Below the pieces are notes generated by a model. It worked only from the letters and a program-made list of their open reading frames with translations. It did not search any database and was not told where the DNA came from. A stretch of DNA of 35,381 nucleotides from a virus, in the IMG/VR virus record IMGVR_UViG_3300042294_005150, positions 1-35,381 of that record. The stretch is one strand, 5' to 3'. Positions within the stretch are counted from its first letter, which is position 1. Each line of letters opens with the position of its first letter. Shown in pieces: positions 18,439-19,746 of this stretch. Both the position numbers and the translations under genes were made by a program.

Positions 18439-19746
18439 ATGGAGGCGGCGGTAAACTATCCGCTTAACTGCGGCTTGGCTACAACCAGCGAATTTGCCCG
18501 TCAGCATACCAAGGCAACCATTGCACAGCGCGAGGCCGATCTGTTTCTTGTCGAAGAGTTTCGTCAGACGACTCCGGGAAGTGTAGCCTTCTCCACAACA
18601 GGAGACACACGATACATACAAGAAACTTACCCCAGCGCGGTCTCCGATTTCCGGGCCACCGTCGAGTATTTGCCAACGAAATTTTCTCCTGTCGATCAAA
18701 TTCAAAGTGCAAATCCCTCCGTGTTGTCGGCATCGCCCGAAGACCCCCAGCTTTTCCGGCACGAGGCCAACGGCACGGTTGCCATTGAAGTCAGCTTTGC
18801 CACCAACGAAAAAGTTCGGAAGCGAGCCATTGCCAGAACACTCTCGGAGCCAACAAGCCAAAAACGATTCAACAACTTTCTTGCCGGGTCGGCCGCTGAA
18901 CACGTCTTCACGCAAACGCACGCCTTGGCCAACGGACTGACCTCCCCACCGGAGCACTATCGCCTATATTCAACCTTTGATTTCGCCAACAACAACTACA
19001 TCAAAAATGCAGATTGCTGGGCTGCCTCTTTAGACTTTTCCGGGGTCAGCGTAAACAAGTCTGGCAGTAGCGGCGTCCACGTTTTGACGGCGATCACGCC
19101 GCATCACGCTGTTGGGGTCAATCACTACCAACCGATTGCCGGAGATGTGATTTATTTTTGCGATGCCAACAACCAAACAGTGGCCCGCACCATTCAGTCA
19201 GTGCAGCAAGCGATCGGCACAGACCGTGTGATTGTTCGCTTTACCGAATCGCTTCCCTCATCAGTAAAAAAATACAAACTGTTGCCGCAGGAATACAAAA
19301 ACTTTTTTCCAGTCAATCTTGAAGTGGGATCTAACATCGGATTCCGTTTTCAAAACATACCCTGCGTAGTGGTCAGCCATTATCGCTGGGATTCCCAATG
19401 GCCGCTACAAAGAAACGGACGCTTTGCCTACATTTACTCCGCGAGCACAACAAGCGGGCAGGCCGACCCTTCCGGCATCATGTATCGCCCTGCGCTTAAC
19501 GAGCCCAATGCGCTGGCCGATTACAGCGGCACCCCTTCGGGTATTCGCGGCGGAGACAGCGGGGCTCCAGCCTTTTTTATTATCAACAATGAGCTGATCT
19601 TTTTAGCCCCGCACAAGACGCCCGACAGCGGTTTTTTGCACGCCGACGATTTGCCGGGAATCCAAACCGCCATCGACTCCCTCGGCCCCGGCGGGCAGAC
19701 CTACGAGACCGTAGACCTCTCGGGCTTCACCAACTTTGCAAGCTGA
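18439..19746 (+). CDS. Tail-region protein with trypsin-like serine protease domain
   Basis: 435 residues. The C-terminal half has the order and spacing of an S1/chymotrypsin-type triad. VLTAITPHHAVG gives the His (H222 or H223), TDRVIVRF gives the Asp (D262) and GIRGGDSGAPAF gives the nucleophile (S374), followed by strands as in that fold. The N-terminal ~190 residues have no recognised domain and may anchor it to the tail. It sits between fibre genes, so it could cleave a host surface protein during adsorption or mature another fibre. The DNA is visibly less GC-rich than the flanking genes. The triad is seen; activity is inferred. Confidence 0.65.
   Translation: MEAAVNYPLNCGLATTSEFARQHTKATIAQREADLFLVEEFRQTTPGSVAFSTTGDTRYIQETYPSAVSDFRATVEYLPTKFSPVDQIQSANPSVLSASPEDPQLFRHEANGTVAIEVSFATNEKVRKRAIARTLSEPTSQKRFNNFLAGSAAEHVFTQTHALANGLTSPPEHYRLYSTFDFANNNYIKNADCWAASLDFSGVSVNKSGSSGVHVLTAITPHHAVGVNHYQPIAGDVIYFCDANNQTVARTIQSVQQAIGTDRVIVRFTESLPSSVKKYKLLPQEYKNFFPVNLEVGSNIGFRFQNIPCVVVSHYRWDSQWPLQRNGRFAYIYSASTTSGQADPSGIMYRPALNEPNALADYSGTPSGIRGGDSGAPAFFIINNELIFLAPHKTPDSGFLHADDLPGIQTAIDSLGPGGQTYETVDLSGFTNFAS

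Follow-up and report, generated by a model that had tools for sequence, protein, structure and literature searches.

Organization of the locus

The window analysed here comprises an entire IMG/VR record (35,381 bases) and codes for TerL, a portal protein, a ClpP-type head protease, a major head protein, a tape-measure protein (12131-14158), an endolysin and an integrase. From this gene set the phage is siphovirus-like and probably temperate. Taken from its first start codon, the ORF of the ClpP-type head protease (4285-5532) shares 154 bases with the end of the portal gene; its real start probably lies further downstream. A family-2-like glycosyltransferase (6527-7915) is situated between the head and the tail genes (PHROG beta-1,4-glycosyltransferase, E 8e-12; Pfam GT2 barely at the cut-off). 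A phage recombination pair, consisting of an Erf-like annealing protein and an exonuclease VIII-like gene, was found at 30192-31919, next to a Holliday junction resolvase-like ORF at 29269-30183. Close to the end of the record a short ORF (34975-35307) matches the PHROG phosphoheptose isomerase over 57 residues (E 1e-9), which perhaps reflects a shared small domain only.

The gene under study, at 18439..19746 on the plus strand, is a single unbroken open reading frame of 435 codons with an ATG start, and it is a real gene. Directly upstream and on the same strand lies a tail-fibre gene (17651..18436, 261 aa) whose product contains the Mtd_N domain (PF18454; E 2.2e-12, 47.1 bits, cut-off 26.3), so that the tail-fibre setting claimed by the first-pass annotation is supported. 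Further genes of the fibre module begin 36 bp downstream, including one for a LamG-type lectin (21683-22306). The stop codon of the fibre gene ends 2 bp ahead of the start codon of the second gene (TAA-TC-ATG, 18434..18441, plus strand). No Shine-Dalgarno-like sequence adjoins this ATG, and translational coupling of the two genes is therefore likely. The spacing is similarly tight in the relatives described below, with gaps of 1-4 bp, a GTGA overlap in the distant relative L088 and a 4-bp overlap in the podovirus MW202510.

The gene had also been singled out for a G+C content below that of its surroundings. This holds for the gene itself (G+C 0.534; GC3 0.60, compared with a mean GC3 of 0.757, SD 0.096, over 22 genes), but the upstream fibre gene is equally low (G+C 0.552, GC3 0.565). 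The low-GC unit is therefore the pair of genes and not the second gene by itself.

Four parts, all on the plus strand, can be distinguished in the 435 aa protein. The N-terminal segment (residues 1-35, 18439..18543) carries the motif CGxATTxxFxRQxxK in most members of the family and is 46-57% identical among relatives, as against 20-38% in the Ig-like domain that follows (residues 32-140, 18532..18858). The protease domain with its N-terminal helix comprises residues 147-435 (18877..19743), as delimited by the alignments and the profile comparison. It closes with a conserved tail (residues 426-435, 19714..19743), in which L427, S428 and F430 are invariant in all ten of the diverged members aligned. 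This LSxF motif is kept in all members although the gene stops there; it could be an attachment element or a tail that blocks the active site. The protein has no hydrophobic N-terminal stretch, which argues for release by lysis or in the virion rather than for secretion.

A family of phage proteins

Scanning viral contigs with sequence patterns identified seventeen IMG/VR contigs that carry a relative, and a further relative lies in the complete podovirus MW202510. The podovirus gene, a "hypothetical protein", was the single annotated phage relative found by tblastn (26.8% identity over residues 139-433, E 5e-12). The IMG/VR relatives comprise a close group of about 48% identity, L014 (49%), L013 and L023 (both 42%), L009 (39%), L029/L031, L028, from a contig of 211 kb, and L088 (L088:5647-7032), a distant relative from a contig of 127 kb. 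Two further viral pattern matches, L022 and L025, were dropped as chance matches in unrelated reading frames.

Back-translated patterns found no relatives in 84,980 bacterial and archaeal genomes; 17 pattern matches in bacterial genomes were recognized as chance matches by a profile search. No relatives were found in plasmids either. As far as these searches reach, the family appears to be confined to phages.

Scans of the 435 aa protein against Pfam, NCBIfam and PHROGs gave nothing usable (top PHROG E 0.03), and searches of PDB sequences with the single protein and with the alignment as queries found no match. As no match of any kind was obtained, an identity as Peptidase_S74 or as a depolymerase was dropped. 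The trypsin families PF00089 and PF13365 matched neither the window protein nor the relatives P0002 and P0003, and PF13365 had no match in six records that carry a relative. The protein of L014 stayed below the Pfam trypsin cut-off (18.2 bits versus 27.6), and its best stretch lay off the catalytic register. The phage family is thus new to Pfam, NCBIfam and PHROGs.

Probable catalytic residues

Ten diverged family members were aligned, and no more than 21 domain positions proved invariant: S178, T179, N190, H223, H229, F240, T251, D262, P273, P291, P308, G372, S374, G375, P377, L386, G398, G416, L427, S428 and F430. As judged from this alignment, the set includes all residues that a PA-clan serine protease needs. 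The order His-Asp-Ser and the G-x-S-G-x-P loop, by which the PA clan and family S1 are recognized, are both conserved among the homologues. D262 (codon 19222..19224, plus strand) is the probable catalytic Asp, equivalent to Asp102 of trypsin, and S374 (19558-19560), in the motif GGDSGAP (residues 371-377, 19549..19569, plus strand), would be the nucleophile.

For comparison, profiles were built from 16 trypsin domains and 10 HtrA domains, all from bacterial genomes. The bacterial trypsins contain GGSLIxPxWVLTAAHC around the His and NDIALL around the Asp. The His region of the phage proteins is trypsin-like (AGVLISPRHVLFCNHY in L088, SRRHILSVAHT in MW202510), and the trypsin NDIALL compares with TDIAIVKF in L014 and TDRVIVRF in the window. 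Profile-profile alignment served as a test that does not depend on residues picked by eye. Against the trypsin profile, one alignment placed H229, D262 and S374 on His57, Asp102 and Ser195. Of 150 shuffles of the columns with the GDSG motif anchored, 1 aligned the full triad; of 200 unrestricted shuffles, 1 attained the overall trypsin profile score. Against the HtrA profile, Asp and Ser were paired as with the trypsins and H223 took the His position; here none of 150 anchored shuffles gave the full triad. The profile scores against the trypsins are weak (P about 0.01) and lend support to the protease class without being proof of it.

The first-pass annotation had named His 222 or 223, Asp 262 and Ser 374 as a triad in the order and spacing of S1 proteases. 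Our alignments agree with the Asp, the Ser and the GGDSGAP loop, and the trypsin-like, PA-clan arrangement as such is supported by the invariant triad and the trypsin-register alignment; the histidine has probably to be reassigned. H222 varies among the relatives (Y, R or H). H223 (19105..19107, plus strand) is invariant, matches the HtrA motif TNNHV and takes the catalytic position in the HtrA register. H229 (19123..19125, plus strand), also invariant, aligns with the trypsins free of gaps across the preceding strand, which puts H223 at the position of Trp51. On these alignments H229 is probably the catalytic His, rather than H223.

Two further positions deserve mention. By alignment, the equivalent of Asp189 in the S1 pocket of trypsin is G368, so that a trypsin-like preference for Arg or Lys at P1 would not be expected. 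The distant relative L088 has GCSGHP where the others have GDSGxP, which places a Cys at the Asp194 position beside the Ser nucleophile (D373 in the window). In classical S1A enzymes this position is nearly always Asp, which makes the loop of L088 an unusual one for an active site.

Predicted structure

Structures were predicted with AlphaFold for the full-length protein from 8 sequences and for the protease domain only from 12 sequences. The best-modelled part of the full-length prediction is the Ig-like block (pLDDT 49-92 over residues 31-140). Its structural neighbours are the Ig domain of lambda gpV, Big_2 and T5 pb6 (Z 7-7.8, with many ties), and as modelled it resembles the Ig domains of virions.

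The protease part was poorly modelled in the full-length prediction too. The comparison with S1 proteases that the first-pass annotation had asked for was made with a domain model of low confidence (pLDDT 36), in which a C-terminal helix is predicted after the last strands. In VIA-align, 45 of the best 50 rows for this model were PA-clan folds with Z of at most 4.7, among them chymotrypsin, urokinase, elastase, V8 protease and the trypsin-like domain of IgA1 protease. Several of these rows run end to end, with residues 54-270 of the model on residues 27-243 of the chymotrypsin fold. Foldseek searches with the low-confidence models returned nothing significant (E 0.57 or worse), which is no evidence of a new fold. 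Taken at this model quality, the matches are only suggestive of the two-barrel fold, which the models neither show nor contradict.

Coupling to the fibre gene and probable spread of the pair

The gene directly upstream was compared with Pfam in 12 records, and in 11 of them (the window, L002, L004, L009, L010, L013, L014, L023, L028, L031 and L088) its product has Mtd_N above the cut-off. The sole exception is the podovirus MW202510, where this gene codes for a beta-helix-like protein lacking Mtd_N. The podovirus protease also has no recognizable N-terminal segment of the CGxATT type. As both the segment and the Mtd_N partner are missing there, this one exception suggests that the N-terminal segment may serve for docking to the Mtd_N fibre. 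Over its N-terminal region, which runs from residue 17 to 83-93, the partner fibre shares 68-78% identity with the partners in the relatives, and the C-terminal two thirds of the window fibre show no similarity to the relatives' fibres.

The pair was found in otherwise different phages, among them the siphovirus-like window and the 211-kb T4-like contig L028, whose neighbouring genes code for a T4-like sheath stabilizer and a helicase of T4-like kind. In the latter the pair (L028:1210-4765) lies right behind the gene of the gp15 tail sheath stabilizer, an unexpected place for a fibre cassette. The terminase of the window is missing from all 12 records searched, several of which are fragments. 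Three other genes of the window's fibre module (20482-22724) recur in changed order in L010:3071-6788; they lie upstream of the pair in L010 and downstream of it in the window.

The differing host phages, the reordered genes of L010 and the low G+C content of both genes support a transfer of the fibre-protease pair as a unit. That the gene had been acquired horizontally, as initially proposed from its base composition, accords with the presence of the pair in phage records lacking the terminase of the window. We set aside the idea that the phage had taken up only the protease, from a bacterium, since both genes of the pair are low in GC and the searches found no bacterial source.

Proposed role

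Judged on its conserved residues, the protein is very likely an active serine protease. It lies in the tail and fibre module with a structural partner gene, as virion-associated enzymes do, and we predict with good confidence that it is part of the virion. The reading we favour is that a chymotrypsin/trypsin-like (PA-clan) serine protease forms a component of the tail fibre and acts on a host surface protein at adsorption; we give this reading as a whole an even chance. Fibre and protease would be made together by translational coupling, and the protease would dock on the fibre or the tail tip by means of its N-terminal segment and the Ig-like domain. During adsorption it would cut a protein of the bacterial surface, such as an S-layer protein, an outer-membrane protein or an appendage, and thereby expose or release a receptor. 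That a host surface protein is the main substrate is the part of this proposal about which we are evenly divided.

We considered four alternatives. The main one is that the substrate is viral: the protease could trim the Mtd_N fibre, a different tail protein or its own C-terminal end, either at assembly or upon host contact, as a maturation step or for fibre release. The translational coupling with the fibre gene, the concentration of the partner's conservation in its N-terminal region and the conserved residues L427, S428 and F430 at the protease's own C-terminus would all fit such a role. However, the fibres paired with the protease in the various phages are unlike in their distal part and the podovirus has an unrelated partner, so that a fixed cleavage site would need to be in the Mtd_N region and could not be common to all members. 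For these reasons fibre processing is less likely than cleavage of a host surface protein, and we consider it possible, if rather unlikely.

Second, the PA-clan fold might be retained without catalysis, either lost or never needed, as a binding module of the fibre. Pseudo-proteases with this fold are known, the beta chain of HGF being an example, and the replacement of D373 by Cys in L088 could be read in this sense. Against this, the His, the Asp, the Ser and the glycine of the oxyanion loop are invariant down to about 26% identity, unlike in typical pseudo-enzymes, and we regard a non-catalytic module as improbable.

Third, the domain might not belong to the PA clan at all and use the GDSG motif and the two histidines otherwise, for instance in an esterase or in a metal-binding fibre domain. 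The missing family match, the poor models and the weak profile scores would be in line with this. We nevertheless hold it for quite improbable, since the full triad rarely came into the trypsin register in the anchored shuffles (1/150 and 0/150) and the list of structural matches is dominated by PA-clan folds. Finally, an enzyme released by lysis, absent from virions and attacking host proteins intra- or extracellularly, is very improbable given the constant, almost fused structural fibre neighbour and an Ig-like domain such as virions commonly have, even though the virion location is predicted from gene context and phages do have PA-clan proteases outside fibre cassettes, such as the Trypsin_2 protein of phiM9.

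Comparison with known systems

The protein shares with the S1 family and the PA clan (PF00089, PF13365, HtrA) the order and spacing of His, Asp and Ser, the G-D-S-G-x-P loop, the trypsin-like stretch around the His and the D-x-x-[IV]-V strand after the Asp. It differs in that the window protein falls below every curated cut-off and is fused to an N-terminal segment and an Ig-like domain. Unlike the trypsins, it has an invariant His at the W51 position, no Asp189 equivalent and no conserved disulphide that we could see; unlike in S1A enzymes, the Asp194 partner position is a Cys in one relative. By sequence inspection, no zymogen activation site of the S1A kind (R/K-IVGG-like, giving a new Ile/Val16 N-terminus) precedes the domain. 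We predict that the protease works like an S1/PA-clan enzyme but do not file it under PF00089, PF13365 or S1A, because the Pfam cut-offs were missed and the S1A activation site is lacking.

Sinorhizobium phage phiM9 likewise codes for a PA-clan-type protease of a tailed phage (AKE44730.1), but this protein is recognized by PF13365 (43.5 bits) and has no fibre partner; its gene stands alone, on the strand opposite to the adjoining gp23 head gene. The trypsin-like serine protease of phiM9 is mentioned in PMC10783043, the only mention that searches of the open-licence literature on phage tail proteases gave. A fibre-coupled protease of the PA-clan class was not described in that literature, the coverage of which is incomplete, so that this is weak evidence.

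Virion depolymerases, lysozymes and Peptidase_S74 chaperones are also enzymatic or self-cleaving modules in fibre cassettes, but they have other folds and another chemistry, and the window protease has no Pfam match to them. With the Mtd_N fibre proteins (PF18454) the system shares the domain itself, which is present in the partner gene of every tested lineage but one. We know of no protease accompanying Mtd of the Bordetella phage. Of all the observations made here, the recurrence of the Mtd_N pairing in different types of phage is the most telling.

Tentatively, and with somewhat less than an even chance, we propose a mobile two-gene cassette, consisting of an Mtd_N receptor-binding fibre and a fibre-docked chymotrypsin-fold protease, that spreads among tailed phages of different morphotype. 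Where other phages use glycanases against capsules, the proposed cassette would use proteolysis to open a surface layer made of protein.

Enzymes on phage tails commonly degrade sugars, lipids or peptidoglycan. If our proposal is correct, a receptor-binding fibre combined with a protease would open the bacterial surface by other means, which bears directly on phages whose hosts have a protein coat and offers a source of new laboratory proteases. Since the pair appears to pass from one type of phage to another and the protease family is absent from Pfam, NCBIfam and PHROGs, it has probably been overlooked in many genomes, in which the conserved residues listed here would allow it to be recognized.
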